From: a virus
Strand: one strand, 5' to 3'
DNA: 33,051 bases
Virus record (IMG/VR): IMGVR_UViG_3300042384_001260
Span: 1 to 33,051 of that record
Shown here: positions 51 through 27,695 of the stretch, one piece after another
Numbering within the stretch: the stretch's first letter is position 1
Layout: each line of letters starts with the position of its first letter
Program-made: the position numbers and the translations under genes
The notes under the pieces: model-generated
Databases searched by the model: none
What the model saw: the letters and a program-made list of their open reading frames with translations, nothing else
Told to the model about the DNA's origin: nothing

Positions 51-542
51 ATGTATTCAATTACGAAAAAGGCGATAATTCTTGCTATTCTAATAATAAT
101 ATCTAAAGCGAGTTTCGCAGAATCGTTAATAGACGAATCAGAAAAAACGTGCTTGGCTAAAGTAATTTATAATGAGACCAGAGGAGAACCTTTATCTGGT
201 AAAAAAGGTGTAGCTAAAGTTGTCTTAAATCGAAAATCAGATAAACATTTTCCCAAAACAATATGTTCAGTAGTTAATGAAATTACTACTCGTAAAGGGA
301 GAAAAGTCTGTCAATTTTCATGGGTTTGTACCCGACCCAAAATTAAATGGGGTAGTGCTGAGTGGAAAAATAGTTTAGAATTATCTAATGATATTCTAAG
401 CAACAAGGTTTCTCTTCCAGACTTTGGTTTAAATGTATTGTTCTTCAGAAGTATTAACTGCAGACGAGGGTTTGGAAAGGGTAATTACAAGCTAGTGTCA
501 AAACTAGGTAAAACTAACTTTTATACAAAGAAGATTGCTTAA
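51..542 (+). CDS. Secreted SleB-type cell-wall hydrolase (probable endolysin)
   Basis: The 163-aa protein resembles the SleB/hydrolase_2 family, which cleaves peptidoglycan glycan strands. Residues 1-23 look like a Sec signal peptide: KK at 6-7, a hydrophobic stretch at 8-18, and a possible signal-peptidase site after S-F-A (21-23). The family motif YNETRGE spans 40-46, with E42 the likely catalytic glutamate, and QFSW lies at 88-91. Five cysteines (34, 72, 87, 93, 137) would suit an exported, disulfide-bonded enzyme. AAGGAG at 35-40 lies 10 nt before the ATG and supports this start. The stop overlaps the gp33 start by one base (TAATG), so the two are translationally coupled. Probable role: lysis, or remodelling of the wall from the periplasm. 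Family is fairly sure; lysis role is inferred. Confidence 0.8.
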   Translation: MYSITKKAIILAILIIISKASFAESLIDESEKTCLAKVIYNETRGEPLSGKKGVAKVVLNRKSDKHFPKTICSVVNEITTRKGRKVCQFSWVCTRPKIKWGSAEWKNSLELSNDILSNKVSLPDFGLNVLFFRSINCRRGFGKGNYKLVSKLGKTNFYTKKIA

Positions 543-1418: not shown

Positions 1419-2258
1419 ATGTATAATTTAATGTTTATCGAAAACCAAATAAAATTAAAATTAAATATAGAAGATCATATTAATGTAAAAAAATATATTA
1501 ATTTTATTTGTTCTATTGTTGAGCGTGATCTTGGAGTTTTTGTAGAATCGCATCATATATTACCAAAATGCTATTTTCCGGAATTACATATAGATAACGA
1601 TAATTTAGTTTGGTTAACTCCTCATGAACATTATATTGCACATAAATTATTGGCATTTATAGGTAAAAATAATAAACTTTGGTATGCATTTAATATGATG
1701 AAAAATACTAGAGAAGAAAATAGGTTATTTGATGATGCTGAATATAATTTATTTAAAATTAAAATATATTCTGAATTAAGCGAATATAATAAAATAAATT
1801 CTATATTTGTTGATTTAGGTTTTCAAAAAGAAATGAATCGACGTAGATGGAATAAAATTGATGCGAAAACAAATCAATCGTTATTATTAAAAAATAATAA
1901 TCCTATGCGGTTAGAAGAAAATCGAATCAAAGTTTCATTATCTAAAATTGGTAAACCTCGTTATGATATGCGAGGAAGTAATAATATTATGCATTTAGAA
2001 AAAAATAAAGAAAAATTTAGAGGTAAAAATAATCCAAAGTATATTGGATTTATTGAAAATAAATTAACAAATATTAAGCATTATTCTAAAGATTCATTTA
2101 TAAAAGAATTACAATCTTTAGATATTTGTAGCGAATATAGTATATATTTTCTGAAGAAAATATATAATTATATATTAGGAAAAGAAATTTTCTTAAAGGA
2201 TAGAGATAAAGCTATTGTTATAGATATTTCTAAACAATATCATTTTATTTCAAAATAA
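1419..2258 (+). CDS. HNH homing endonuclease with NUMOD3-like repeats
   Basis: The 279-aa protein has an HNH nuclease core: SHHILPK with the HH pair at 45-46, N60/N62 in DNDNLVWLTP, and HEHYIAH (H69, H71, H75). The second half (about 157-215) has repeated NUMOD3-like DNA-binding motifs around KNNNPM, RGSNNIM and RGKNNPKY. This layout is typical of free-standing phage homing endonucleases, which cut an allele lacking the gene and spread by repair. The gene interrupts the usual gp59-gp32 pair, is visibly more AT-rich than its neighbours, and is bracketed by a 9-bp inverted repeat. AAGGAAAG sits very close to the ATG; Met5 is a possible alternative start. It probably does no essential phage work. 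Family is confident; homing activity is inferred. Confidence 0.85.
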   Translation: MYNLMFIENQIKLKLNIEDHINVKKYINFICSIVERDLGVFVESHHILPKCYFPELHIDNDNLVWLTPHEHYIAHKLLAFIGKNNKLWYAFNMMKNTREENRLFDDAEYNLFKIKIYSELSEYNKINSIFVDLGFQKEMNRRRWNKIDAKTNQSLLLKNNNPMRLEENRIKVSLSKIGKPRYDMRGSNNIMHLEKNKEKFRGKNNPKYIGFIENKLTNIKHYSKDSFIKELQSLDICSEYSIYFLKKIYNYILGKEIFLKDRDKAIVIDISKQYHFISK

Positions 2259-2314: not shown

Positions 2315-3244
2315 ATGGATTTCAGTAAATTAAAAAAATCTTCTGGTTCTAACTTAGAAAAAATGGCCAAAGCTGTTGAACAAATGGCAGGCAGTAACCA
2401 AAATTCTGATGCTGATCAATATTGGAAATGTGAATTAGACAAGTCTGGAAATGGATATGCAATTGTGAGGTTTCTTCCAACATCTCCAAAAGATGCTGAA
2501 TCAGATGGTCTTCCCTGGATTAAATTTTATGATCATGGATTCCAAGGACCAGGTGGTTGGTATATCGAGAAATCTTTAACGTCAATCGGTCTTGACGATC
2601 CGTTAGGAAAATATAATAGCGAACTATGGGAATCAGGAATTGAGGCTAACAAGGAGCAAGCACGTAAGCAAAAACGTCGATTGCACTATGTCTCTAACAT
2701 TTATATCGTTAAAGATACAAAACATCCTGAACACGAAGGAAAAGTATTTAAATATACTTATGGTAAGAAAATTTTTGAGAAAGTTACTCAAGCCATGAAT
2801 CCTCAGTTTGAAGACGATAAACCAATCGATCCATTTGATTTCTGGGCAGGCGCGAACTTTAAATTAAAAATTCGTAAAGTTGACGGTTACCAAAATTACG
2901 ATTTAGCTGAATTTGATAGCGCAGCTCCATTGTTTGATGACGATGATAAGTTGGAAAAAATTTGGAAATCACAATATTCTTTACAGGAATTATTGGAACC
3001 TAAAAACTTTAAATCTTATGCGGATTTAGATGCTAGGTTAAAAAGAGTTTTAGGTCAAACTAATCAATCAAAATACAAAACTGCTGAAGATTATACAGCA
3101 AAATCTCTTGATGAGGTTGAAGATGAAGTATTTGTTCAAAGCGTAGTTGAAAAGAAAACTACTGCTTCATTTGCTGCAGCCGTAATTGATGACGAGGAAG
3201 ATGACGATATGTCATATTTCTCTAAACTTGTAGGTGATGATTAA
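2315..3244 (+). CDS. gp32: Single-stranded DNA-binding protein gp32
   Basis: The 309-aa protein matches T4 gp32 (301 aa), which coats ssDNA cooperatively during replication, recombination and repair. It has the three expected parts: a basic N-terminal tail (FSKLKKSSGSN) for cooperativity, an OB-fold core (about 35-235, including YWKCELDKSGNGYAIVRFLP and WAGANFKLKIRKVDGYQNYD), and an acidic C-terminal tail (DDEEDDDMSYF) that recruits partner proteins. The T4 zinc-finger cysteines are absent: where T4 has CPVC this protein has DPLG, and its only cysteine is C39. The same region (SLTSIGLDDPLGKYNSELW) resembles my recollection of marine relatives. AGAGGTAG lies upstream of the ATG. A strong terminator follows. 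Confidence 0.93.
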   Translation: MDFSKLKKSSGSNLEKMAKAVEQMAGSNQNSDADQYWKCELDKSGNGYAIVRFLPTSPKDAESDGLPWIKFYDHGFQGPGGWYIEKSLTSIGLDDPLGKYNSELWESGIEANKEQARKQKRRLHYVSNIYIVKDTKHPEHEGKVFKYTYGKKIFEKVTQAMNPQFEDDKPIDPFDFWAGANFKLKIRKVDGYQNYDLAEFDSAAPLFDDDDKLEKIWKSQYSLQELLEPKNFKSYADLDARLKRVLGQTNQSKYKTAEDYTAKSLDEVEDEVFVQSVVEKKTTASFAAAVIDDEEDDDMSYFSKLVGDD

Positions 3245-3250
3245 ATAAGA

Positions 3251-3275
3251 AAGGGAGCTTCGGCTCCCTTTTTTT
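3251..3275 (+). terminator. UUCG-tetraloop intrinsic terminator after gp32
   Basis: AAGGGAGC and GCTCCCTT form a perfect 8-bp stem around a TTCG loop, followed by five more T's (3271-3275). It lies seven bases after the gp32 stop. The opposite strand has a T-rich but interrupted tail, so it may also stop the convergent tape-measure transcript, less efficiently. Confidence 0.9.
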
Positions 3276-6200
3276 ATGCCATTGAGCCACCTTGCGTACT
3301 CCACATACTTCCTTCTTCCATCATTTTTATAGTTGGATCATCGTTTCTTACCCCAGGAACAGATTTTCCTGTTCCTGCTGGAGCAGGTGGAGGAGGAGTT
3401 TGTTGGGCTTGCTGTTGTGGAGGTGCTGCAGGTTTAGGTGAAGTTTGTCCATTTTGATTTCCTGCTAAATTATTACGTTGTTCGTTTAATGAACTCATTT
3501 CTGTGTGAATATCAGATAAACGATCTAGTTGTTTATCCATTGTTTCTTTATCAACATTAACTCCAGATTGACCAATTTCATTTCTTTCGTTTTCTAGAGT
3601 AGCTTTTTGTCTGTCAATTTCCGCAACCTGTTCTTCTGTGTCAGTATTTTTTACAGGAGATGCAGTATCTTTTCGACCTTCTAATATGTCACCTGGACCT
3701 ACTTCTTTGCCATGCCTCATATAATATCCAGGTTTTCCTGGAATTGGAGTTGTATGATATTTAGCCAAAGGATCTGGGTTGTTTACTGGATCTTTTTCGT
3801 GTGCTTCTGCTGCTTTATCTAACTCAGTTGGTTGATATTCTTCCGCAGTTCTTGTTGTAACTCCTCCTCCAGTTGTTACTTCTCTATGTTTATTAGTCGT
3901 AGTAGTATATTGCGACGTTTCTATTGTTTCTTTTGGAGAAACACGGTGTTCGTTTGCTGTAGTAACATTTTCCACAGTTTCAACGTATGGGGAAGGGTTT
4001 TCTTTGTTTATTCTATTAAATTCAATATTATTTCGTTCTCTACTTATTTCACTATTTTTCGCATTTATTTCGTCAACTGTTAGGTTTCCTGGATTTTTAG
4101 CAAGTTCTTCTGCTTGTTGTGCAAGTTCCTCTTCTCTAATTTCATCTGGAGAAGCATTTGACATATCTTTTTTTGGCGCATATCTTGTTGCATGTTCTGT
4201 AACAGTTGATGAAGAAGCAGTTTTTGTCGTTACTTCGTCTTCTGCAGGAACATCATACGGGCTAGATTTTTCCTCTTCTCCTGGAGCTATAAAATATGGA
4301 TTTCTTGTTCTATCTCCAGTAAGTTCTACTCCTTTTATTACAGGTTTTGCTGAAGAAGTTTCTTTTTTATCAGGTAAACTTTTACCCATAAGTTTTTCGG
4401 CATTTCTTACTCTTTCTGAAGAATGCCCTCCATGCATACTTGCTGCAGTTATTTCGTATTTTCTTTCAACAGATTTAGCAGCTCCTTCAGCAGTAGTTTG
4501 TTTTCGAAGGTCGTTTCCTGCACTTTTATGTGAATTATTTAATTCCCAATCTACAAATTCTAACTGATCTTCGAGAGAAGCTCCAACTAAATCTTTATGC
4601 ATTATTTCTTTAAATTTAGCTTGGCGATCTGGGTGCCATTGAGCTATCCCTACTGCTTTGCCTCCATCTCCGCGTCTTTCTCCTGATATTACATCTTTGT
4701 TAAAATTTCCTGATTCTCCTTGTAAGTTTCCGACAATTCCTGCAGCTTGTTCTTCTGTATATCCCTTATTCATAAAGAAGTTTTTTGCATATGCTGCTTT
4801 ATCATCTCCTCCATTTAATAACTCAGCTCCAACAACTGCTCCGCCAACTCTTGCTGCTGTTGGAGCAACAGCTTTAGCTGCGCTGCCCGCAGCTTTAGCG
4901 CCACCTAAAATTCCTCTTCCTATTTTTGAGAGTAAGCCAACTTTTTTTGCTGGATTTAGCGCAGAAACAGCAGCTGCGCCTGCAGCTTTAGGGTTAATTT
5001 TACCCAATAGTTTTGACCAGAAACCTTTATCTGCTTCACCCATTCCTCCTTCTTCTCCGCCTAAACCTCCCCCGCCTCCGCCATAAATGGGGGTTGCAGA
5101 TCCCATTTCATTCTGACGAGCTTGCATATTTGCAGAATTTAAATCATTTGTAGCATTTTGTTGTGATTGTGATCGCGTTAACGAAGAAACATCTCTAGAT
5201 ATTGAATTAATAGTATCATTTGTTTTTGCTAATACATTATAAATTTTATTTAATACTTCAATTGCAGATTTTCCTTGAACGTCTCCGCCACCGAAATGAC
5301 TTTCACCGATTCTACCAGAATCCCCGCCAGAGGGCATTGAATTAAATGTTGACCCAATTGAACCTCCGCCAGTAAATAATGATCCCATCCCTGCACTAAT
5401 CCCCCTGAATGGATTTGACCCCTTTCCAACAGCTGCTCCTAATGCTCCACCTGCTACATCTCCTAATAAATTACCTGCTCCTTTTTTTATATCTTCCCAT
5501 GCTTCTCCTGGATGATCAATTGCATTATCAACCCAATCTACTCCCTTTTGAGCTTTTTCTTGCCATTTGGTTTTTTCTTCGTCAGATAAATTTTCATAAT
5601 ATTCGCCTGCTGGTATTCCAATAGCAGCACCTAATCCTGCTCCTTTTAATGTAGTTTTACCTAAACTTGCAATTCCACTACCAACAGATTTTGCTCCCTC
5701 GACAACCTTTCCGCCAGCCCAATCTGCGCCCTGAACAATTTTATTTTTAGTCCAATCTGCAACTTTACCAAAAATACTTTGTTCTGGCGGCGGAGTTATT
5801 GTTTCTTGAACAGTTTCCGTCGCTCTTGTTGTGTTACTTCTAAATGGAGTTTCTGTAGCAGTGGAATTTGTTGCAGTTCTTGCTTGCTGCTGTTCTGCTT
5901 GCGCTCTTTGAATAGATTCCTGTGCGCGTTGTTCTCGGGCAGCTGCTCTTGCTGCCCGCTCTGCAGATAATGCTTCGTCTGCTTTATCTGCAGCACTTTT
6001 AAATACATTACTTACTTTTTTTAATGAAGGAATATTTTCGCCAATTACTTCAGCAGCACCCTTAAACAATTTTGGAGCAGCTTTAAATGTAGCTTTACCT
6101 GCTGCTCCTCCAAGTGCAGTAGTAGCAACATCTCCTGCAAAAGATGCTATTGCTCCTCCTTGACCTTTTAATGCTTGGCTATATAATTTTTCTGCACCTT

Positions 6201-6444
6201 GTCTATCACCAGCAGTTGCTGCTTCAACAAATTTCATTGCATCATCAGCGCTGGATATGTATTTTAATTGTTCTTTTTGACTTAAAGTTAAATTATTTAA
6301 TTTACTTTCTCTTTCAACAATCCAATTTCTATCTTTGCTATTTTGACTTACGCGAGAAAATTCATCTTTTGTTTGATTATATGCATTACTTGCATATTCT
6401 TTTGCATTATCTAAAAATGATGTATCTGAATTATTAGTTGCCAT
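3274..6444 (-). CDS. Probable tail tape measure protein with embedded tail-lysozyme domain
   Basis: This 1056-aa protein follows the gp26/gp51-like chaperone genes, the position of a tape measure (functional counterpart of T4 gp29, 590 aa). The N-terminal ~390 residues are Ala/Gly-rich with charged helical stretches (SAERAARAAAREQRAQE) and hydrophobic glycine-rich segments near 270. A coiled-coil-like stretch follows at about 390-430. Residues about 548-690 match the phage tail lysozyme family (Phage_lysozyme2): AAGIVGNLQGESGNF with a likely catalytic Glu near 577, then GIAQWHPDR and QLEFVDWEL. The remaining ~360 residues are hydrophilic and low complexity, ending in a Pro/Gln-rich stretch. 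The ATG directly follows the gp51-like stop (TAGATG). Lysozyme domain is confident; tape-measure role rests on position and composition. It could instead be a hub-associated lysozyme. Confidence 0.7.
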   Translation of the reverse strand: MATNNSDTSFLDNAKEYASNAYNQTKDEFSRVSQNSKDRNWIVERESKLNNLTLSQKEQLKYISSADDAMKFVEAATAGDRQGAEKLYSQALKGQGGAIASFAGDVATTALGGAAGKATFKAAPKLFKGAAEVIGENIPSLKKVSNVFKSAADKADEALSAERAARAAAREQRAQESIQRAQAEQQQARTATNSTATETPFRSNTTRATETVQETITPPPEQSIFGKVADWTKNKIVQGADWAGGKVVEGAKSVGSGIASLGKTTLKGAGLGAAIGIPAGEYYENLSDEEKTKWQEKAQKGVDWVDNAIDHPGEAWEDIKKGAGNLLGDVAGGALGAAVGKGSNPFRGISAGMGSLFTGGGSIGSTFNSMPSGGDSGRIGESHFGGGDVQGKSAIEVLNKIYNVLAKTNDTINSISRDVSSLTRSQSQQNATNDLNSANMQARQNEMGSATPIYGGGGGGLGGEEGGMGEADKGFWSKLLGKINPKAAGAAAVSALNPAKKVGLLSKIGRGILGGAKAAGSAAKAVAPTAARVGGAVVGAELLNGGDDKAAYAKNFFMNKGYTEEQAAGIVGNLQGESGNFNKDVISGERRGDGGKAVGIAQWHPDRQAKFKEIMHKDLVGASLEDQLEFVDWELNNSHKSAGNDLRKQTTAEGAAKSVERKYEITAASMHGGHSSERVRNAEKLMGKSLPDKKETSSAKPVIKGVELTGDRTRNPYFIAPGEEEKSSPYDVPAEDEVTTKTASSSTVTEHATRYAPKKDMSNASPDEIREEELAQQAEELAKNPGNLTVDEINAKNSEISRERNNIEFNRINKENPSPYVETVENVTTANEHRVSPKETIETSQYTTTTNKHREVTTGGGVTTRTAEEYQPTELDKAAEAHEKDPVNNPDPLAKYHTTPIPGKPGYYMRHGKEVGPGDILEGRKDTASPVKNTDTEEQVAEIDRQKATLENERNEIGQSGVNVDKETMDKQLDRLSDIHTEMSSLNEQRNNLAGNQNGQTSPKPAAPPQQQAQQTPPPPAPAGTGKSVPGVRNDDPTIKMMEEGSMWSTQGGSMA

Positions 6445-6651
6445 CTATTGCATATTCCTTTTAGCTTCTTGTTGTTTTCGTCTTTCTTCTTTGTCTTTTA
6501 GATACTGCACCAATAAACCAACATAAACTTCCCTTTCCCAAGGGATCATCTCTTCCAACTCATGTAATCTGTATCCATGATGTTGCATCATGTTAAAATT
6601 TGTTTTATAAAAAGTTGTAAGATCAACATTACCAAGAATTAAATAAAAAAA
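6445..6651 (-). CDS. gp51: gp51-like tape-measure chaperone frame, reached by -1 frameshift from gp26
   Basis: A 68-codon frame lies between gp26 and the tape measure, opening immediately after an in-frame TGA at the gp26 3' end and closing with TAG at 6445-6447. Its translation contains NMMQHHGYRLHELEE, MIPWEREVYVGLL and a charged C-terminal helix ending RNMQ. This resembles the short baseplate/tape-measure-chaperone type (T4 gp51 class). There is no ribosome binding site before its internal ATGs at 6589-6591 and 6586-6588. The frame overlaps the end of gp26 only across a seven-T run. The simplest reading is a gp26-gp51 fusion of about 306 aa made by -1 slippage, like lambda gpG-T. Reality of the coding frame is fairly sure; expression by frameshifting is inferred. 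Confidence 0.72.
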   Translation of the reverse strand, partial: FFYLILGNVDLTTFYKTNFNMMQHHGYRLHELEEMIPWEREVYVGLLVQYLKDKEERRKQQEAKRNMQ

Positions 6652-7364
6652 TCAAAAATATCTCGTACTTCTATAGAATGATCAAATCCGCATTTATTAC
6701 ATTTAATACCTAATTTTTTAACGATTTTTGGTTCATTTGCAAAAAATTCTTCTATTTTTACATATTTTTCTGGAGGTAATTCTCCAATCCAATCAACAAT
6801 ATTTTGTAATGGAACATCTTTTGCGCTATAAGCTGAATTATCGTCATAAATAAATTCAACGTTTTTAGCAATTATTTCAAGAATTTGCTGCGGAGTAGGT
6901 AATGCATCACCAATAGCATCTTTTTCAAATCTTTGATAACGTAATTTTAATCCAACTTTATCTGTTACTTCAATAATAGGAGAAATATCTGGTTTAATTA
7001 TTTCCAATGCAGTCAAAAGATTTAATTCGTGTTCCATAATATTATTACATTTTTTATCTTCTTCTGTTATATTTTCGCATCTATATTTTAATTCAATGAT
7101 TTCAGATTCAGATCTTGCTCGTAATTGATAAAATAAAAATTCAACATCATTTAATGGTAAATCAGCAACTTCTGTTGAATCAACACAACAATTTTGTGCT
7201 ATTTGAATTATCGCATCAACTAATGAATTATTATCTCCTGATTCTTTAGCCATGGCTAGAATCTTTTGTTCTTTTACGTTGTAAGGTCTATATTTTACAG
7301 TTAATTCTGATATTGGTAATTTAACTGTATATGTTGGCATATCAATTTTTGGTAACAAACTCAT
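6639..7364 (-). CDS. gp26: gp26-like baseplate hub / tape-measure chaperone
   Basis: The 241-aa protein matches the T4 gp26 family (T4 base plate protein, 208 aa in T4), needed for hub assembly and thought to chaperone the tape measure. The N-terminus (LPISELTVKYRPYNVKEQKIL, then SLVDAIIQIAQNC) is characteristic. Two cysteine pairs, C96/C106 and CNKC at 222-225, could bind one zinc ion. The gene ends GAT TTT TTT ATT TAA, a slippery run leading into the gp51-like frame, so two products are likely: the 241-aa protein and a longer fusion. It lies 17 bases downstream of gp54 in the same leftward operon. Confidence 0.82.
   Translation of the reverse strand: MSLLPKIDMPTYTVKLPISELTVKYRPYNVKEQKILAMAKESGDNNSLVDAIIQIAQNCCVDSTEVADLPLNDVEFLFYQLRARSESEIIELKYRCENITEEDKKCNNIMEHELNLLTALEIIKPDISPIIEVTDKVGLKLRYQRFEKDAIGDALPTPQQILEIIAKNVEFIYDDNSAYSAKDVPLQNIVDWIGELPPEKYVKIEEFFANEPKIVKKLGIKCNKCGFDHSIEVRDIFDFFI
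6645..6651 (-). promoter_or_regulatory. Putative -1 programmed ribosomal frameshift site (T7 run)
   Basis: On the minus strand the seven T's read T TTT TTT in the gp26 frame, two phenylalanine codons able to re-pair one base back. In the -1 frame a TGA ends immediately before the run; in the gp26 frame a TAA ends four bases after it. The switch must therefore occur within this small interval. The +1 frame closes within eight codons, so only -1 gives a product. Confidence 0.65.
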
Positions 7365-8896: not shown

Positions 8897-9340
8897 TTAT
8901 AACCCTAAATCCTTTTCTGTTAATACTTTGAATTCCCATTTTCTATCCATACAATATTCTCTTGCTGCTTTCCATTTAGCTTGATTTATTGCATAGGTGC
9001 AAACTTCTGTTATATACTGTTTAGTTATTCGTTTTTTAACTTCTGGAGCATTTGCTTGATATTCCGGTTTAATCTCTAATAAATATGTCTTAATTCTACC
9101 ATCAGCTCCTTTTACTTTTGCCCAAACATCTGGAAAATATCTATGTAGCTTATTATCTACTGGAGATTTATATGGAATAACGCATTCTTCTGATGCCCAT
9201 TCCAACACTGATGGGTTATCGTCCATCCATTTAAATACTCGCAATTCCCATGAAGATCTAGATATTATATTATCCCAATCCCCTTTATATTTTGCTTTGT
9301 TCTTTGGAACCCATTTCCTTGGTTTAGGATATCTACTCAT
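8897..9340 (-). CDS. gp4: Head completion protein gp4 (nuclease fold)
   Basis: The 147-aa protein matches T4 gp4 (also called gp50/65, about 150 aa), which acts at head completion before the tail joins. The family signature is clear: PKPRKWVPKNKAKYKGDWDN followed by SRSSWELRVFKWMD. The fold belongs to the PD-(D/E)XK/TnsA-N-like nucleases, and here the motif is intact: E32, P70-D71 in YFPDVW, and E89-I-K91 in LLEIKP. It is the first gene of the leftward block and is divergent from gp48 across a 73-base gap. Confidence 0.88.
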   Translation of the reverse strand: MSRYPKPRKWVPKNKAKYKGDWDNIISRSSWELRVFKWMDDNPSVLEWASEECVIPYKSPVDNKLHRYFPDVWAKVKGADGRIKTYLLEIKPEYQANAPEVKKRITKQYITEVCTYAINQAKWKAAREYCMDRKWEFKVLTEKDLGL

Positions 9341-10799: not shown

Positions 10800-11804
10800 A
10801 TGTCTTCATTTTTTTCAAAATATCCATTACTTAATATTAATAGTAAAATTGTAACTGATATTGTTACAAGAATAGCAATTAGACAAAAATATTCAAATAA
10901 ATTGTCGATGTATTATCCATATGATATGCAAGAAGGGGATACTCCAGAAATTATTGCAGCAAAATATTATGGAGATCCTGAGCGTCATTGGATTGTAATG
11001 TTAGCCAATGATACAATTAATCCGTTTTTTGATTATTCTTTAGATTATCCGGTATTTTCAAAATATCTTATGGATAAGTATAAAAATGAAGGAAATAGCA
11101 CAAAACAATGGAAAGAAGGTAATTGGAGAGGTGAATGGGATGCAACTGATATAGATATTGTTGCTGAATACAATGTAAATAATATTATCGTTACAAGTAA
11201 TACAGCATTTATATGCGCAAATACGCACAAACCTGCGCGAATTGGAACGTTTAAAGATGCGTTAGCTAAAAAATATTGGAATAGAATTTATGATGGGGCT
11301 TATTGGAAAGGGGATTGGCAAAATAATATACAATACAATACAGATGATGTTACAACGTATAATGGGATAATTTATATTTGTAAACAAAATAATACATCAA
11401 ATTCTATTAATGGAATAACTATTTCTAATGCAGATTATTGGAAAACTTACACTAATGGCTTGGAATATACGTTAGTTACAAGAAATAAAGATCCATTTGG
11501 ATATAGAGCAACTATTACTACAACTGATGTTCTATCCGGAAAAGAATCTATAGAAACAATTTATATTGATGAAAAAGCTTATAACGGCGGAGAAAATGGA
11601 TATGACTATCCTATATTTAATTACGCATCACAACCAACGCAATCAGAAAATATTGAGATCTCAATTACAAAAGATAAATTATCTATTTACGATTATGAAC
11701 TTGAACAAAATGAAAATAAACGCACAATTAATTTAATTAGAAGAGAATATGTACCGCAAATTGAACAAGAATTAAAAGTTTTAATGAGAACATATTATGG
11801 CTGA
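10800..11804 (+). CDS. gp53: Baseplate wedge gp53 with inserted carbohydrate-binding-like modules
   Basis: The 334-aa protein is an enlarged gp53 (T4, 196 aa), the clamp joining wedge and hub. The N-terminus has the LysM-like gp53 core (YDMQEGDTPEIIAAKYYGDP, then HWIVMLANDTINPFFDY), and the C-terminus has the usual LSIYDYELEQNENKRTINLI and REYVPQIEQELKVLM. Between them lie two modules resembling CBM5/12 chitin-binding folds: about 106-162 (GNWRGEW to KKYW) and about 165-217 (YWKGDWQNNIQYNTDDVT, YNGIIYIC, ADYW). The insertion may decorate the baseplate surface with a sugar-binding domain. The stop overlaps the next gene by eight bases. Confidence 0.85.
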   Translation: MSSFFSKYPLLNINSKIVTDIVTRIAIRQKYSNKLSMYYPYDMQEGDTPEIIAAKYYGDPERHWIVMLANDTINPFFDYSLDYPVFSKYLMDKYKNEGNSTKQWKEGNWRGEWDATDIDIVAEYNVNNIIVTSNTAFICANTHKPARIGTFKDALAKKYWNRIYDGAYWKGDWQNNIQYNTDDVTTYNGIIYICKQNNTSNSINGITISNADYWKTYTNGLEYTLVTRNKDPFGYRATITTTDVLSGKESIETIYIDEKAYNGGENGYDYPIFNYASQPTQSENIEISITKDKLSIYDYELEQNENKRTINLIRREYVPQIEQELKVLMRTYYG

Positions 11805-20702: not shown

Positions 20703-23700
20703 ATGTTAAATTTCAATACAAAACCATATTATGATGATTTTAACGAAGATAAAAATTTTCATAAAATTTTATTTAAACCTGGAGTCGCAGTTCAAGCAAG
20801 AGAATTGACGCAAATGCAATCAATATTGCAAGATCAAATCGGTAAATTTGGTAAATTTGTTTTATCCGATGGTTCTATTGTTAGTGGCGGAAATTATTCT
20901 ATAGATACAAATGTTAAATCTTTAAATTTAGCTAATGAAGGTAATATTGCTACTGATATCGTAAATTTTTCCGGTATGTATGTTGTTGGAGAAACTTCTA
21001 GATGTATTAGTTTAATTACTTCTATTGATGTATTAAATTATTATCTTGTAGTAAAATCTGTACAGAACGCGCAAAATAATTATATTCAAAATGAAGTATT
21101 AAACATCTTTTCTAGAAAAGATGTTGCTTTCCAATATATTCAAGATAGTACAATATTACCAGATTATACAGCTAAATTAAATCTAGATGTAATAACAACC
21201 ATTAATAACTGCTATGGTTCCATAAATTCTACTGAATTTACCATTAATTCGTCAATCGTTGACGTTGGTGATGTAATTACAGCAGAAGTTGATAATTATT
21301 TAGTTAATTATATTGTAACTGATGTTAAATCAAATTCTATAGTCTCTGTAGATAAACAATTAACTACAGATTATACTAACGTTCCAGTAAAGATATCAAA
21401 ATTTGCATCAAGAATTGTATTAGAAGTAAATGTAGATACTGGAGTATATTTTACAAATAATACTTTTGTAAAATCTTTACCGCAATCTATAGTCCCAAAT
21501 AGTAAAACTCAATTCCCATCGTGTGTTATTGGATTTGAAGTTATAGAATCTATGGTAGATTTTATAGACGATACTTCATTATTAGATCCAGCGCAAGGTT
21601 CATATAATTATACAGCTCCAGGGGCTGATAGGTATAAAATTTATTTAAATTTAGTATCAAAACCATTGTTTGCTGGATCAATAAATCCAACAGACATAAC
21701 AACAACTAAATTTATTGAATTATTAAGAATAAAAGGTGGTATTGTTATTTCAGACAACACGGATCCAACTTTAGGGGATTTAGAAAATGTTTTGGCTAAA
21801 CAATTATATGATCATGCCGGAAATTTTATTGTTTCCCCATTTACATTATCATTTAACAATTCTAAATTTACAAACGAAGAAACGAAATTAAATTGCAGCG
21901 TTTCTTCAGGGAAAGCTTATGTATTTGGTTATCCAATAGATTCTAAATTTCCTACTAATATTGTAGTAGATAAAACTAGAGAAACAGCAAATTCAGGTTC
22001 AAAAATATCAAATTCATATTATGGAAATAGTATAAGAATTAAAGATTTAAGCGGACTAATGCTTGCTCCTACATTAGGAGCAAAAGTAGGATTATATTCT
22101 ACAGTAAAAGGTGCCGCAACTCCAGTATTATTAGGATATGCATTTGTAAGAAATATTGATTATACAACAACAAATGAATATGGGTTATATTTATATAATT
22201 TTACAATCCCTAAATCTGATATAGTAAATATAAAATCAGTATTAGCAATGGGGACAACAGGATTTTCTGCTAATACAGTATTAAATAATTCTGCACAAAC
22301 AGTTTTAACAGATCCTACATTTGATAAATTAATATTTAAATTAGAATACACAAACCCTTCTTCTGTAAATATTACTAGCACAACATTAGATTTATTTAAA
22401 ACATTATCGGTAACATCTAATGTTGCTACAATTTCAACAGATTCCGTTTTTAAACAATTTCCTGTTGGAGTATCGGCATCATTATCAACCGAAGATAAAA
22501 ATCAAAACTTTATCATTGTTACTAAATCTAATAGCGGAGCATATTCTGCCGGGCAATTTGTTGATTTATTAGAAGTTACTATTGAAACTAAAGCTATTAG
22601 CGGTGGATATCAAGCTATAATTACATTTAATAATGGATATTCTGGCCAAATTGATGTAAAATATTCAATTAATTATTCTTCTCCTCAACAAAAAATTAAA
22701 ACTTTACATCTTGATCAAGTAGTTAAAGTAAATGCTTCAGTATTACCAACTAGTATTGGATATTCGGATATTGCTAGATTTAAAAGTATATTTAAAACTT
22801 CAAATTCCGCCGACACAACATATGCCGGAGATTGGGGCAGCGGAGTAATTTATACGAAAAATGATGTGGTCAGGCAAGGACGTAATATATTTGTATCTAC
22901 GCAAGATTCTAATGTTGGAAATATACCGTCTTCTTCGTCAGGATATTGGAATATATTACAAAATGTTTCGTCTAGATATAAAGTAAATACTGGACAAACA
23001 GAATATTTATATGATTTTGGCTATATTTCAGCAAAAAGCACTGCTGATACTGGAAGCGTTTTTGTATTATTTGATTATTATACGCACTCAACGGATGGAG
23101 AATATATTGCATTTGACTCTTATCCTGTTACATATAATAAAATACCACGAGTAACTATTAATAATACAGAATATGCGTTAAAAGATTATATTGATTTTAG
23201 ACCTCGTAGAAAAAATTCAACTAACATAGATAATATTGAATTTGATGATTATAGAATTCCATCATCAGTTACAGATTCAAATTTAACATATAATATGTCA
23301 TATTATCTTGGTAGAACTGATAAATTAGTTTTAACTAAAGAAAAACAATTATCTTGGTTAAAAGGCGTATCTTCGTATAAAAATTGGATTCCACCAAAAG
23401 ATTTGTCTGATGCAATGACTATTGCAACAATAGATTTTGAACCATATTGTTCTGATATTACTTCTATACGAATTAAATATGCAAAACACCGTAGATATAC
23501 AATGGATGATATTGGTAATTTAGAAACTAGATTACAAAATGTTGAATATTATACTGCATTAAATATAGCAGAAAAAGCTACATTAGCAACAAATATTAAT
23601 GACCAATATGGAGCAAGATTAAAAAACGGATTTATTGTTGATTCGTTTACTAATTTTAATATTGTTGATTTATCAGCAAATTTTAGAAATATTTGTATAG

Positions 23701-26700
23701 ATTTAGAAAATAATTTAGCACGCCCATCTTTTGGTAAAGGCGAATTTAAGTTATATCCATTTTTCGTTACAGGAGAAGCTAAATTAACAAGAAAATCAAA
23801 TTTAATTTCGTTCAACTATACTGAATTTCCAATTACAGTTCAAAATCAAGCAACTTCATGGACTAGAGTTAATCAATTTGATGTAATTGCATATAACGGG
23901 GATTTAGTTTTAGAACCGCAAAGAAGCGTATTTGTTGAAGAAGCTGGAGTAACATATAATATTACTAACGATACAGCTGATCTTATGAATGCTTCTGAAA
24001 TTCCAGGATTAGTTTATAATGATTGGAATACATATTTTTCTGCTCATCCATATATTGCGGATCCTACTGCATCAAGCATAGCTGTAAGCTATAATAATGT
24101 AAATTATGATATTAAAACAGTTCTTGATGTAACCAAAACGGCAAAAATTGACGTTTTAGCGCAAAATATAATACCTAAATCAAAATCTACTAGTATTAAA
24201 TTTACTGCAACTGGTTTAGCGCCATATACGCGAATGTTTGTATATGTTAATGGGCGTTTAATGAATGCAGCAGTAATACCAGATAAAAATCCATTAGGGC
24301 TTATAACTGGAATTAATCTTGTTAACCCAGGAAGTGGATACAGTAGTTCTGGAGTAACTGCGACTCTTTCTGCTACAGCAAATACTATAGCGCAATTTAA
24401 TGCTTCTGTTGTAGGTGGATCTATTGAATATGTTACTATAAGCAATCCAGGAAAAGGTTATTCTATAACCGAAGATAAATTGCTCACAATTACTGGAGCA
24501 AATACAAATACTGCAATAATTCAAGCAAAAACAACTCCTGTTAAAGGGATGACTTTATATTCAAATAAATCTGGAACATGTTCTGGAATAATAGAACTAA
24601 CTAATGACTTGATAAGTTTTGATGCAGGAGACCTATTAGTTTCAATAGTAGATACTCCGCATTATAATATATCTAAAGCAATGTCTGTATCTAATGGAAC
24701 TTTTTATGCAAAAACAAATTATTATCAAACTATTATAGATTCTATTAGAAAACCATATATTTCTAAAACAGGAAATATAAATCCAGCTCTACCAGACCAA
24801 ACTGCTGGAATAATTGTCCCGATAACTGTAGATTATAAAGTTGTTGATTATAGTTTAGATTATGAAACAATAAAATCTGGCTATCTTACAATTCCAGTAT
24901 CTTTAAATAAACAACCAAATACAACTGTTACTGTTTCTGTTTTGCTTAATGCATCAGAAGATATGTCATCAAATGCATCAATATCGGCGGATCATTCTAC
25001 ATTAACATACACAACAACTAATTGGTCTACTCCACAAAATTTAACTATAACATATAATTTAGGCGATAGAATCCAAGTTACTGATAATATTGCAAATACA
25101 TTTCTTGATAATAATTTACCATCTCGTATTGAATTTTATTCTACTTCTTCTGATCCGCAATATAATTATGGTGGAACATCAATACCATTAAGATCTTGGT
25201 TAATGAGATCTCAACCAAAAGGTGTTACGTCAACTCATTTAGTTCCATACAAAAAATTTGATCCAAATGTAGGTCCAGCTGCAGAAACTACGCCATTTAT
25301 TTCGGTTTCTCCTGTGTCAGTATCAAATGTTGCTGGACAATCATTTTTTACGGTATCATATGGCGGAGGAAATGATATTGGATGGTGGACTGATTCAACA
25401 TCTACATATCCATTAAAATTTACAGCAAATGTTGCAAATACAAATATAACGCAAGTAACGCATTCTATATACGAAGATTATGAAACTTCAGATATAATTT
25501 CTGATAATGAGAGAACTATATTAAAGTCTGATCAAGAAATATTAAAGTTTACATATTGGCTTACAGGTATAGCTCAAGGAAATACAACTGTTACAGTTAA
25601 AACTCAATCATCTAATCCAAATTGGAATAACCTTACTGCAACGTCTCCTATTAATGTTGGACCAGAATTATTAACACCATTACCTGCAATTTTTTCTCAT
25701 CAAAATGCAGAATTAACGTCAACTAATGGAGTTATTTTAAATGCTCCTAGAATTACAACTTCTCTTGGAACAACACAAGTTATTGACGTATCATTAACTA
25801 GACGTCCAAATTCAAATGTTATTATAACGGCAACTTCAGATAATGAAGTTGGAGGCGGTATAATTTATCAAGTTTCTGAGGATGGATTAACTGCAGTTTC
25901 ATCGAATACAATAGTATTTACTCCAGGTCGATGGAACATAATGAAAACTGTTATTGTTAAAGGCGTAGCTGATGCCAATTTACACCATGAAGCAATTACA
26001 GATTATAATATTACATTAACTTCATCTTGCGCTAATACTGAATGGAATAATTTAACAACTGTAGTTCCAATGAAAAATAAAGATTCAGGGAATACTATAA
26101 ATGTTATTTGGCCAACTGTTAGCATTTCTACTTATGCGTATAAAACAGAATATAATAATCATAGACAAGATGCTCTATTTTTTATTAAATTAGAATCTCC
26201 TCCAGTTGATGGAAATGTAATAGTTACTATGTCTTCATCAGACCCAGTTAAAGGGGGAACAGTATATCCTCCTGAAAAAAATAGTATAACATTAACTTCA
26301 CAAAATTGGAATTGGGGTAATAATGTTCTTTCGATGACAGGAGCTCAACTTCCAGGATATACAATATCTTCATACAAAGCAGTTTTTGATTATACTGGAG
26401 GAGTTAGCCCAAGAGATGCTAATCATGCTGAATTTGAATTATTAAATGGGTTAACATATATTCCACCTGAACCAGTTCCGTATATTTATTATCCAGATCC
26501 AGATCCAACACCTACTCCAACACCTACTCCAACACCTACTCCAACACCTACTCCAACGCCTGGACCTGGACCAACGCCTACTCCAACGCCTACTCCAACG
26601 CCTACTCCAACGCCTACTCCAACGCCTACTGAAATAGTAACAGTATGCGAATTACCAACTCTCAGAACTACAACAAAAACTGAGGTAATATATGTAGCTG

Positions 26701-27695
26701 AACATGTTCCGAAACCTGCTATTAGTTTAAATGTAACAGGAGCAACTGTATCTGACGTAACGCAATTATCTAATGGAACTTGGGTAGCAAAGTTAGAATA
26801 TGGAGTTACATCTGTAGTTCAAAAAGGAAAGGGCGGAAGTTTAGAAGCTGAAAGCGGAGCAGGATATTTTGGAGGAAGCGGAACATGTTCAGTTGAAATT
26901 ATTGATGCAAATGGAATAACTGATGTTACTAGCGCTACAATAAAAGTTGTAGATGCAGGAACTCCTCTTGACAAGTATACTAATGCCCGAGGAATGAAGT
27001 TTTATGGTGACGTTAACGCATCAGTTGATCCAATAACAAAAACTGTAGCAACAGGAGCTGTAACAGATACTGAAGTGATTCCTGCGTCATTTTATGTAAG
27101 TTCACAAATAGCTACGAAAAATACACTTTTAACAAAAGAAGTTACTGGCTCTGACAAATATACAGCAGGAGCAGTGGCAACAACGCCAGTTTATACATAT
27201 ATTGAGATTTCAGGCGTAGGAGCAGATTTAAATAAAGCTACAACAAATCAAATTACTACAACAAAAACCACCACAGAACTTGTTTTTGGCGGAACAGTAC
27301 TTGAGTCAACAGTAGCTACAGAAGTTAAAAAAGATGAAGTTCCTGTTACTTTAAATCCAGCTGCAACTAATTCTGTTACTACTTTAGCAGCTGAACAACA
27401 AGCAGATGCTGCTAAATCACTAGCTTTAATGGGTCCAGTTTACAGCGTTAGTTCTGCTCCTCCACTAGTAACAAATTTGGGTTTACAAACTGTAACTGGA
27501 GTAGTCGGAGTAGCCGTAACTCCTGGATTGGGAGTTTTAGCTCCAAATTATCAACCAATGGGTCCATTCTTAACCGAAGTATCGCCTCCAGCTGTAGCAG
27601 ATAAACCTCAAGCTATTACAGTTGGTTGGTTTACTGCTTTTGGTTATACCAGCGAAGAAGAAGCGTTCGAAAACTGGGAGTATTCTTCAAATTGA
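20703..27695 (+). CDS. Giant DUF4815-type baseplate/fibre protein with Calx-beta-like domains
   Basis: This 2330-aa protein begins with a DUF4815-type domain (FNTKPYYDDFNEDKNFHKIL, KPGVAVQARELTQMQSILQ) known from large virion proteins of marine T4-like phages. Its place after gp8 is that of T4 gp9/gp10, so it is probably the outer wedge or fibre-attachment protein. Later parts: a CBM5/12-like module at about 706-755 (GDWGSGVIYTKNDVV to GYW); a glycine-rich GSGY module at about 1200-1280; Calx-beta-like repeats at about 1380-1450, 1683-1785 and 1810-1920; a Pro-Thr linker at 1935-1976; and a Thr/Val-rich C-terminal region I do not recognise. AAAGG precedes the ATG. The frame is intact throughout. 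Receptor-facing role is inferred. Confidence 0.8.
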   Translation: MLNFNTKPYYDDFNEDKNFHKILFKPGVAVQARELTQMQSILQDQIGKFGKFVLSDGSIVSGGNYSIDTNVKSLNLANEGNIATDIVNFSGMYVVGETSRCISLITSIDVLNYYLVVKSVQNAQNNYIQNEVLNIFSRKDVAFQYIQDSTILPDYTAKLNLDVITTINNCYGSINSTEFTINSSIVDVGDVITAEVDNYLVNYIVTDVKSNSIVSVDKQLTTDYTNVPVKISKFASRIVLEVNVDTGVYFTNNTFVKSLPQSIVPNSKTQFPSCVIGFEVIESMVDFIDDTSLLDPAQGSYNYTAPGADRYKIYLNLVSKPLFAGSINPTDITTTKFIELLRIKGGIVISDNTDPTLGDLENVLAKQLYDHAGNFIVSPFTLSFNNSKFTNEETKLNCSVSSGKAYVFGYPIDSKFPTNIVVDKTRETANSGSKISNSYYGNSIRIKDLSGLMLAPTLGAKVGLYSTVKGAATPVLLGYAFVRNIDYTTTNEYGLYLYNFTIPKSDIVNIKSVLAMGTTGFSANTVLNNSAQTVLTDPTFDKLIFKLEYTNPSSVNITSTTLDLFKTLSVTSNVATISTDSVFKQFPVGVSASLSTEDKNQNFIIVTKSNSGAYSAGQFVDLLEVTIETKAISGGYQAIITFNNGYSGQIDVKYSINYSSPQQKIKTLHLDQVVKVNASVLPTSIGYSDIARFKSIFKTSNSADTTYAGDWGSGVIYTKNDVVRQGRNIFVSTQDSNVGNIPSSSSGYWNILQNVSSRYKVNTGQTEYLYDFGYISAKSTADTGSVFVLFDYYTHSTDGEYIAFDSYPVTYNKIPRVTINNTEYALKDYIDFRPRRKNSTNIDNIEFDDYRIPSSVTDSNLTYNMSYYLGRTDKLVLTKEKQLSWLKGVSSYKNWIPPKDLSDAMTIATIDFEPYCSDITSIRIKYAKHRRYTMDDIGNLETRLQNVEYYTALNIAEKATLATNINDQYGARLKNGFIVDSFTNFNIVDLSANFRNICIDLENNLARPSFGKGEFKLYPFFVTGEAKLTRKSNLISFNYTEFPITVQNQATSWTRVNQFDVIAYNGDLVLEPQRSVFVEEAGVTYNITNDTADLMNASEIPGLVYNDWNTYFSAHPYIADPTASSIAVSYNNVNYDIKTVLDVTKTAKIDVLAQNIIPKSKSTSIKFTATGLAPYTRMFVYVNGRLMNAAVIPDKNPLGLITGINLVNPGSGYSSSGVTATLSATANTIAQFNASVVGGSIEYVTISNPGKGYSITEDKLLTITGANTNTAIIQAKTTPVKGMTLYSNKSGTCSGIIELTNDLISFDAGDLLVSIVDTPHYNISKAMSVSNGTFYAKTNYYQTIIDSIRKPYISKTGNINPALPDQTAGIIVPITVDYKVVDYSLDYETIKSGYLTIPVSLNKQPNTTVTVSVLLNASEDMSSNASISADHSTLTYTTTNWSTPQNLTITYNLGDRIQVTDNIANTFLDNNLPSRIEFYSTSSDPQYNYGGTSIPLRSWLMRSQPKGVTSTHLVPYKKFDPNVGPAAETTPFISVSPVSVSNVAGQSFFTVSYGGGNDIGWWTDSTSTYPLKFTANVANTNITQVTHSIYEDYETSDIISDNERTILKSDQEILKFTYWLTGIAQGNTTVTVKTQSSNPNWNNLTATSPINVGPELLTPLPAIFSHQNAELTSTNGVILNAPRITTSLGTTQVIDVSLTRRPNSNVIITATSDNEVGGGIIYQVSEDGLTAVSSNTIVFTPGRWNIMKTVIVKGVADANLHHEAITDYNITLTSSCANTEWNNLTTVVPMKNKDSGNTINVIWPTVSISTYAYKTEYNNHRQDALFFIKLESPPVDGNVIVTMSSSDPVKGGTVYPPEKNSITLTSQNWNWGNNVLSMTGAQLPGYTISSYKAVFDYTGGVSPRDANHAEFELLNGLTYIPPEPVPYIYYPDPDPTPTPTPTPTPTPTPTPTPGPGPTPTPTPTPTPTPTPTPTPTEIVTVCELPTLRTTTKTEVIYVAEHVPKPAISLNVTGATVSDVTQLSNGTWVAKLEYGVTSVVQKGKGGSLEAESGAGYFGGSGTCSVEIIDANGITDVTSATIKVVDAGTPLDKYTNARGMKFYGDVNASVDPITKTVATGAVTDTEVIPASFYVSSQIATKNTLLTKEVTGSDKYTAGAVATTPVYTYIEISGVGADLNKATTNQITTTKTTTELVFGGTVLESTVATEVKKDEVPVTLNPAATNSVTTLAAEQQADAAKSLALMGPVYSVSSAPPLVTNLGLQTVTGVVGVAVTPGLGVLAPNYQPMGPFLTEVSPPAVADKPQAITVGWFTAFGYTSEEEAFENWEYSSN
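26505..26630 (+). repeat. Tandem 12-bp PTPT-coding repeat in two arrays
   Basis: Four copies of CCAACACCTACT (26505-26552) are followed by an 18-base spacer coding PTPGPG and five copies of CCAACGCCTACT (26571-26630). All units encode Pro-Thr-Pro-Thr. The arrays differ by one synonymous base and are uniform inside, which points to separate expansion by slippage or unequal exchange. The encoded Pro-Thr stretch is a stiff linker. Confidence 0.95.

Follow-up and report, generated by a model that had tools for sequence, protein, structure and literature searches.

We propose that gp26 and gp51 of a T4-like phage lineage very probably represent one tail assembly chaperone gene that is read in two ways through a -1 frameshift. 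The window, meaning the whole stretch of DNA analyzed here, comprises positions 1 to 33,051 (33,051 bases) of the IMG/VR record IMGVR_UViG_3300042384_001260. Profile searches identified several T4-type genes within it, namely gp32, gp4, a DNA end protector, a gp19-like tube protein, and homologues of gp48 and gp53. The initial annotation had suggested that a -1 frameshift of the lambda gpG/gpG-T kind may operate at gp26/gp51 in this lineage, and the suggestion is supported by the conservation of the slippery heptamer, by selection on the -1 frame, and by the chaperone fold of gp26. The features concerned are the following:

6639 to 7364, minus strand: gp26, predicted short form of the tail assembly chaperone, 241 aa (PF12322, PHROG 150, AlphaFold2 model)
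6645 to 6651, minus strand: slippery heptamer T_TTT_TTT in the gp26 reading phase (sequence and conservation)
6639 to 6641, minus strand: 0-frame (gp26) stop TAA, one sense codon past the heptamer (sequence; same spacing in 198 of 203 heptamer loci)
6652 to 6654, minus strand: TGA closing the -1 frame immediately 5' of the heptamer (sequence)
6448 to 6651, minus strand: -1 frame of 68 codons, the gp51 domain and putative C-terminal extension of the long form (PHROG 634, C-terminus of PHROG 150, tblastn, AlphaFold2)
6445 to 6447, minus strand: TAG stop of the -1 frame, adjoining the next ATG at 6444 (sequence)
6661 to 6664, minus strand: GAGA, a weak trace of the SD-like element that relatives carry 5' of the slip (anti-SD duplex, comparison)
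3274 to 6444, minus strand: probable tape measure with a tail lysozyme domain, 1056 aa (PHROG 9570, PF18013, position)

On the minus strand, the 3' end of gp26 reads GAT (6653-6651) TTT TTT ATT TAA (6641-6639), and the run of seven T with which the gene was said to end is found at 6651-6645. The TGA of the -1 frame lies just before this run, at 6654-6652, as had been noticed earlier. The 68-codon gp51-like frame indeed reaches the base before the next ATG (6651-6448, followed by TAG at 6447-6445 and the ATG at 6444). The gp26 stop had been placed four bases past the run; the distance is corrected here to three bases, or one codon. The +1 frame, described as closed, is shut three codons beyond the gp26 stop. 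The -1 frame has its earliest ATGs at codons 21-22 (6591-6586), and inspection by eye revealed no SD sequence ahead of them, in line with the earlier statement that the gp51-like frame has no ribosome binding site. The predicted fusion would comprise 306 aa, with the junction ...DFF-YLILGN... and 66 residues gained past the slip.

Profile searches matched gp26 to PF12322 (T4_baseplate) with an E-value of 2.1e-47 and 162.1 bits (cut-off 24.5), and to PHROG 150 with an E-value of 1.1e-48, residues 3-240 aligning with positions 6-232 of 282. The -1 frame matched PHROG 634, annotated as "baseplate hub assembly catalyst" (E 3.5e-26), and additionally positions 231-281 of PHROG 150 (E 1.2e-5), directly after the stretch matched by gp26. 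Since gp26 and the -1 frame match adjacent stretches of PHROG 150, the two frames represent successive portions of a single family of known proteins.

The AlphaFold2 model of gp26 (66 sequences) reached a pLDDT of 91.9, and that of the gp51 domain (44 sequences), which is all helical, a pLDDT of 85.2. The best structural matches of gp26 in the PDB were 3fgx (Z 7.8), the HK97 tail assembly chaperone 2ob9 (Z 7.2), and YqbN 3klu (Z 6.9), all below 8, a range for which the tool warns that values can mean a common arrangement. After these three, the matches fall to 5ir0 at Z 4.5, with unrelated rows at or below 2.6. By these models, gp26 matches an HK97-type tail assembly chaperone fold, which spans about residues 1-88. 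Foldseek alone, run with the gp26 model, returned no significant match (2ob9 at E 0.59), the gp51 domain showed no clear match among PDB structures (best Z 3.5), and sequence searches of the PDB yielded nothing useful. In the models, the final helix of gp26 comprises residues 236-240, and the gp51 domain opens with a helix at residues 2-7. The two adjoin at the slip, and one unbroken helix across it is plausible in the fusion.

Conservation was surveyed in loci from IMG/VR and annotated phages that were fetched with gp26 queries and not with the slip. Among 228 loci, 223 with a gp26 match were retained; those omitted were L005 and L046 (T4, RB43), L033 (a repeat of the window), L215, and L228 (KVP40 stretch without the gene). 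A Phe-Phe pair, sought in the last 12 gp26 codons irrespective of codon choice, was present in 203 of the 223 loci and was written T_TTT_TTY in every one of them (203/203), with TTC as the second Phe codon in 184 and TTT in 19. In sequence terms, this recurrence of the slip site is far beyond chance. These 203 loci consist of 14 named records and 189 IMG/VR loci, and 120 remain once near-duplicates are removed. The second slip-site Phe is TTC in 107 of the 120 dereplicated loci, which were drawn from loci already selected for the heptamer, compared with 38.5 expected; elsewhere in the same genes, Phe is encoded by 792 TTT and 365 TTC codons. One sense codon separates the heptamer from the gp26 stop in 198 of the 203 loci, two in three loci, none in one (Milchi), and eight in one (Mosig). 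In the Pelagibacter phage Mosig (L034, around 2990-3034), the heptamer is kept and the gp26 frame reads on for these 8 sense codons.

The -1 frame is complete in 199 of the 203 loci and measures 55-77 codons there. A gp51-domain profile made from 44 of the -1 frames matches every one of these 199, as well as the four frames truncated at the locus end. The alignment of homologous loci that had been proposed as a check thus returned the heptamer, its phase, the nearby stop, and the open -1 frame in 203 of 223 loci. The 20 loci without the heptamer comprise 19 Ackermannviridae and the interrupted locus L161, where an early in-frame stop breaks gp26 (...GAC GGC GAC TAA). KVP40, which was read separately, carries the slip region GAT TTT TTC GTA TAA. 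Furthermore, a tblastn search with the -1 peptide reached 557 phage records, and 59 of 60 among the matches listed align from residue 1, which is the slip itself.

The pattern of substitution was examined in 60 independent pairs, over the region from the gp26 stop to the MQHH motif or first common ATG. In this region, 221 of 349 changes affect the third base of a -1 codon, and the codon changes comprise 185 synonymous and 110 non-synonymous cases. On the 5' side of the slip, it is the third base of gp26 codons that shows the excess (949 of 1505 changes). The third-position excess therefore changes frame at the slip, which indicates that reading moves there from the gp26 frame to the -1 frame. 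Judged by these substitutions, the -1 frame evolves as a protein from the slip onward.

Upstream of the slip, an SD-like element was detected. Across the 120 dereplicated loci, the bases 8-15 ahead of the slip pair with the anti-SD at a mean of -6.4 kcal/mol, against a background of 0.2 +/- 1.1, and a duplex of -5 kcal/mol is attained in 98 of the 120. A second, shallower anti-SD dip, of about -2.7 kcal/mol, occurs at -36 to -29 in the same loci. Synonymous choice within the element is skewed toward Val GTG (23 of 43, 4.1 expected), Glu GAG (47 of 96, 22.3 expected), and Gly GGA (53 of 110, 26.8 expected), and this codon bias points to selection on the RNA beyond the amino acids. The relatives L014, L142, and L143 carry GAGGATATT at the SD-like position. 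In L006, which is near-identical to the window, the best anti-SD duplex is -3.0 kcal/mol, and four of the 120 loci, L006 included, are that weak or weaker. The element of S-RSM4, L031, and Ps15 is no stronger than that of the window. An SD stimulates -1 frameshifting in dnaX. Leaving aside what Vladimirov et al. 2022 cover, our literature search found no description of an SD-like element for a T4-like tail chaperone, and its occurrence before the chaperone slip may be new to the literature.

A downstream hairpin was also considered as a general stimulator. Windows of 60 nt starting at slip+12 gave a mean folding z of -1.28 (n = 118), compared with -0.04 to -0.65 in the gene body (p 2e-8). Two gene-body offsets also fold low, however (z -0.65 and -0.59), and the window lineage shows no downstream hairpin, with z about 0 in L006, L010, and L143. 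Covariation was weak. In the cyanophage hairpin A5, 94.2% of cells are paired and one pair is changed on both sides, a count equaled by 320 of 500 shuffles; in A6, 82.9% are paired with two double-changed pairs, and a +1 slide outscores the actual structure in covariation. The hairpin was rejected as a general stimulator on these three grounds, namely the low body offsets, the lineage of the window, and the covariation, while downstream hairpins in some cyanophage clades are plausible.

In the mechanism that we propose, most ribosomes would terminate at the gp26 TAA, giving a short form of 241 residues. Others, with tRNA-Phe paired to both codons of T_TTT_TTT, would slip back by one base into the -1 frame and produce a long form of 306 residues that bears the helical gp51 domain. 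If the two forms work like lambda gpG and gpGT, the short form may coat the tape measure, and the extra domain of the long form may recruit tail tube subunits; on the same analogy, neither form need be in the virion. The comparisons above establish the signal, its conservation, protein-level selection in the -1 frame, and the fold of a chaperone; the slippage, its efficiency, and this division of labour we infer.

The -1 frame could alternatively encode a separate gp51 protein, made from an internal start or by coupled re-initiation after gp26, which we consider very unlikely. A separate gp51 is annotated in S-RSM4, P-HM2, and S-PM2, but the annotated proteins are small and disagree in length (45 aa in S-RSM4 and 31 aa in P-HM2). 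An ATG is found 4-6 codons into the -1 frame in 32 of the 120 dereplicated loci, and a TAATG stop-start overlap occurs in two Ackermannviridae (L040 and L043). However, the first ATG mostly lies about 21-22 codons in (54 of the dereplicated loci at index 21 and 11 at index 20), and no SD-like signal appears between the slip and the early ATGs in these loci. Selection on the -1 frame starts at the slip, ahead of the putative internal starts, and a separate start would leave the constrained heptamer unexplained.

Polymerase slippage on homopolymers is established, and the run in the window contains seven consecutive T, so that transcriptional rather than ribosomal slippage could give rise to the -1 product. 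We regard this origin as extremely improbable, since 184 of the 203 loci have only six T, terminated by C. The fixed phase relative to the gp26 codons and the preference for TTC at the second codon fit tRNA re-pairing and not polymerase slippage, and the upstream SD-like element acts on ribosomes. Homopolymer runs are also prone to error, and PHROG 150 includes sequences with both parts in one frame, as would be expected if a sequencing or assembly error had divided one gene into two frames. Such an error is barely conceivable given the identical two-frame layout in 14 named phage records, 189 IMG/VR loci, and KVP40. Ribosomal -1 frameshifting within one chaperone gene is the reading that we retain.

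Other members of the T4 superfamily differ in arrangement. T4 (NC_000866) encodes gp26 (208 aa) and gp51 (249 aa) from genes on opposite strands, and both proteins match PF12322 (8.8e-64 for gp26 and 3.9e-52 for gp51). T4 gp51 carries the gp26 domain and the gp51 tail in one frame, running through the end of PHROG 150 into PHROG 634. T4 gene 26 ends in GAG TTC TTT GAG TTA CTA TAA, without the heptamer and with the -1 frame closed. Among 20 records searched, two PF12322 genes were found in T4 and RB43 and one in each of the other 18, including KVP40, Asswx_1, and S13, where the single gene carries the heptamer. The window record holds one PF12322 copy within 33 kb, possibly a genome fragment. 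From gene content, T4 and RB43 thus appear to carry the short and long forms on two separate paralogous genes (26 and 51). In the gp26 tree, the nearest row to the window is L143, with 57% identity. The T4 and RB43 branches are long and the root is the midpoint, so the tree is no proof of ancestral frameshifting.

In the Ackermannviridae, the -1 frame matches the gp51 domain in all 19 loci (E 1e-7 to 1e-4) without a heptamer. The site reads ATT TTC ATT TAA, or GCT TTC ATG TAA in YC, and the stop is overlapped by ATG in L040 and L043 and by ATT in the others. Either a single-tRNA slip or re-initiation would suffice to produce the domain. These observations can be combined into a broader reading, to which we give an even chance. 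Much of the T4 superfamily would share a three-part recoding cassette. Its first part would be a GTGGARGGA-like element that binds the anti-SD from 8-15 bases ahead of the slip; U_UUU_UUY and a 0-frame stop one codon further would make up the rest, and certain clades would have added downstream hairpins of their own. The cassette would have given way on two occasions, with separate genes (a short 26 and a fused 51) taking its place in T4/RB43 and a heptamer-less signal (a single-tRNA slip at U_UUC or re-initiation at the AUG/AUU overlapping the stop) in the Ackermannviridae. The lineage of the window would have kept the slip and nearly lost the upstream element. If this reading is true, frameshift efficiency, and hence the short-to-long ratio, would be lineage-tuned.

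The gene downstream of the -1 frame is probably the tape measure, going by sequence matches. This earlier identification stands in part, by virtue of a match to PHROG 9570 (tail length tape measure, 6.3e-30) that covers residues 508-743 only; the identity is otherwise reached by inference, with limited direct support. Residues 549-686 match PF18013 (Phage_lysozyme2, 2.4e-26). A tape-measure PHROG match was obtained for three of eight downstream ORFs in relatives (L038, L036, and L003), and the next annotated gene in the Ackermannviridae locus L040 is a hub/lysozyme.

Elsewhere in the window, a homing endonuclease (1419-2258, plus strand; PHROG 655, 4.4e-30) is flanked by a gp59-like helicase loader (804-1400) and gp32 (2315-3244). 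The gp53-like baseplate wedge protein at 10800-11804 (plus strand) contains a probable carbohydrate-binding module at residues 173-200 (PF02839, CBM_5_12; E 1.4e-5, 25.5 bits, under the 26.2 cut-off). A gp4-like head closure protein at 8897-9340 (minus strand) matches the PF08722 TnsA-like endonuclease N-terminal family (2e-23). Additionally, an endolysin-like protein (PHROG 14642, 4e-12) is encoded at 51-542 (plus strand); by eye, its N-terminus may hold a signal segment. The largest ORF of the window, with 2330 codons, occupies 20703-27695 (plus strand).

Relatives with the predicted frameshift show how the short/long pair of chaperones would arise from one gene. In many records gp51 is mis-started or absent, so that proteomic searches would miss the long form. 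Among the stretches examined, the gp51 domain is unannotated, leaving a gap after gp26, in Se_EM3, ACP17, Asswx_1, S13, and MDA2066 (L041, L042, L044, L045, and L226). Slip stimulators differ between lineages, which opens the short-to-long ratio to direct testing.

A passage of a 2016 review (PMC5009743) describes the G-T frameshift as widely conserved "except T4". According to the sentences in which they cite Vladimirov, Gautam & Davidson 2022 (Virology 566:9-15), some T4-like phages carry one short and one fused gene (PRFect paper, PMC10885494), and the TAC-N genes of T4-like phages contain poly-T -1 frameshift signals (Adele paper, PMC12846349). The initial annotation named no description for gp26/gp51; these citing passages suggest an earlier one. 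Frameshifting of the T4-like chaperone as such is probably already in print, with the window as a further example.

The systems of Vladimirov et al. 2022, as cited in PMC10885494 and PMC12846349, resemble the window in that they concern the gp26/gp51-type chaperone of T4-like phages. In the Vandenendeviridae/Andersonviridae chaperone, as presented in part of PMC12846349, a T-run -1 slip likewise occurs at the end of TAC-N and the second frame is usually annotated as a separate ORF; these are other families, and the motif reported there is GTTTTT. In lambda gpG/gpGT, as outlined in the review passage (PMC5009743), ribosomes slip by -1 close to where the short gene ends, just 5' of the tape measure, and two products come from one start; the window is predicted to do the same, ahead of a probable tape measure. 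No sequence match was detected between the window proteins and lambda proteins. The slip sites differ, the window heptamer being T_TTT_TTY, unlike that of lambda. HK97 2ob9 and YqbN 3klu share the fold of gp26 residues 1-88 at about 10-13% identity, the C-terminal part (about 90-241) being uncovered by these structures. Of the T4 proteins, gp26 resembles the predicted short form of the window and gp51, with its gp51 tail, the long form, but T4 uses two genes, on opposite strands, and the end of its gene 26 lacks the heptamer.
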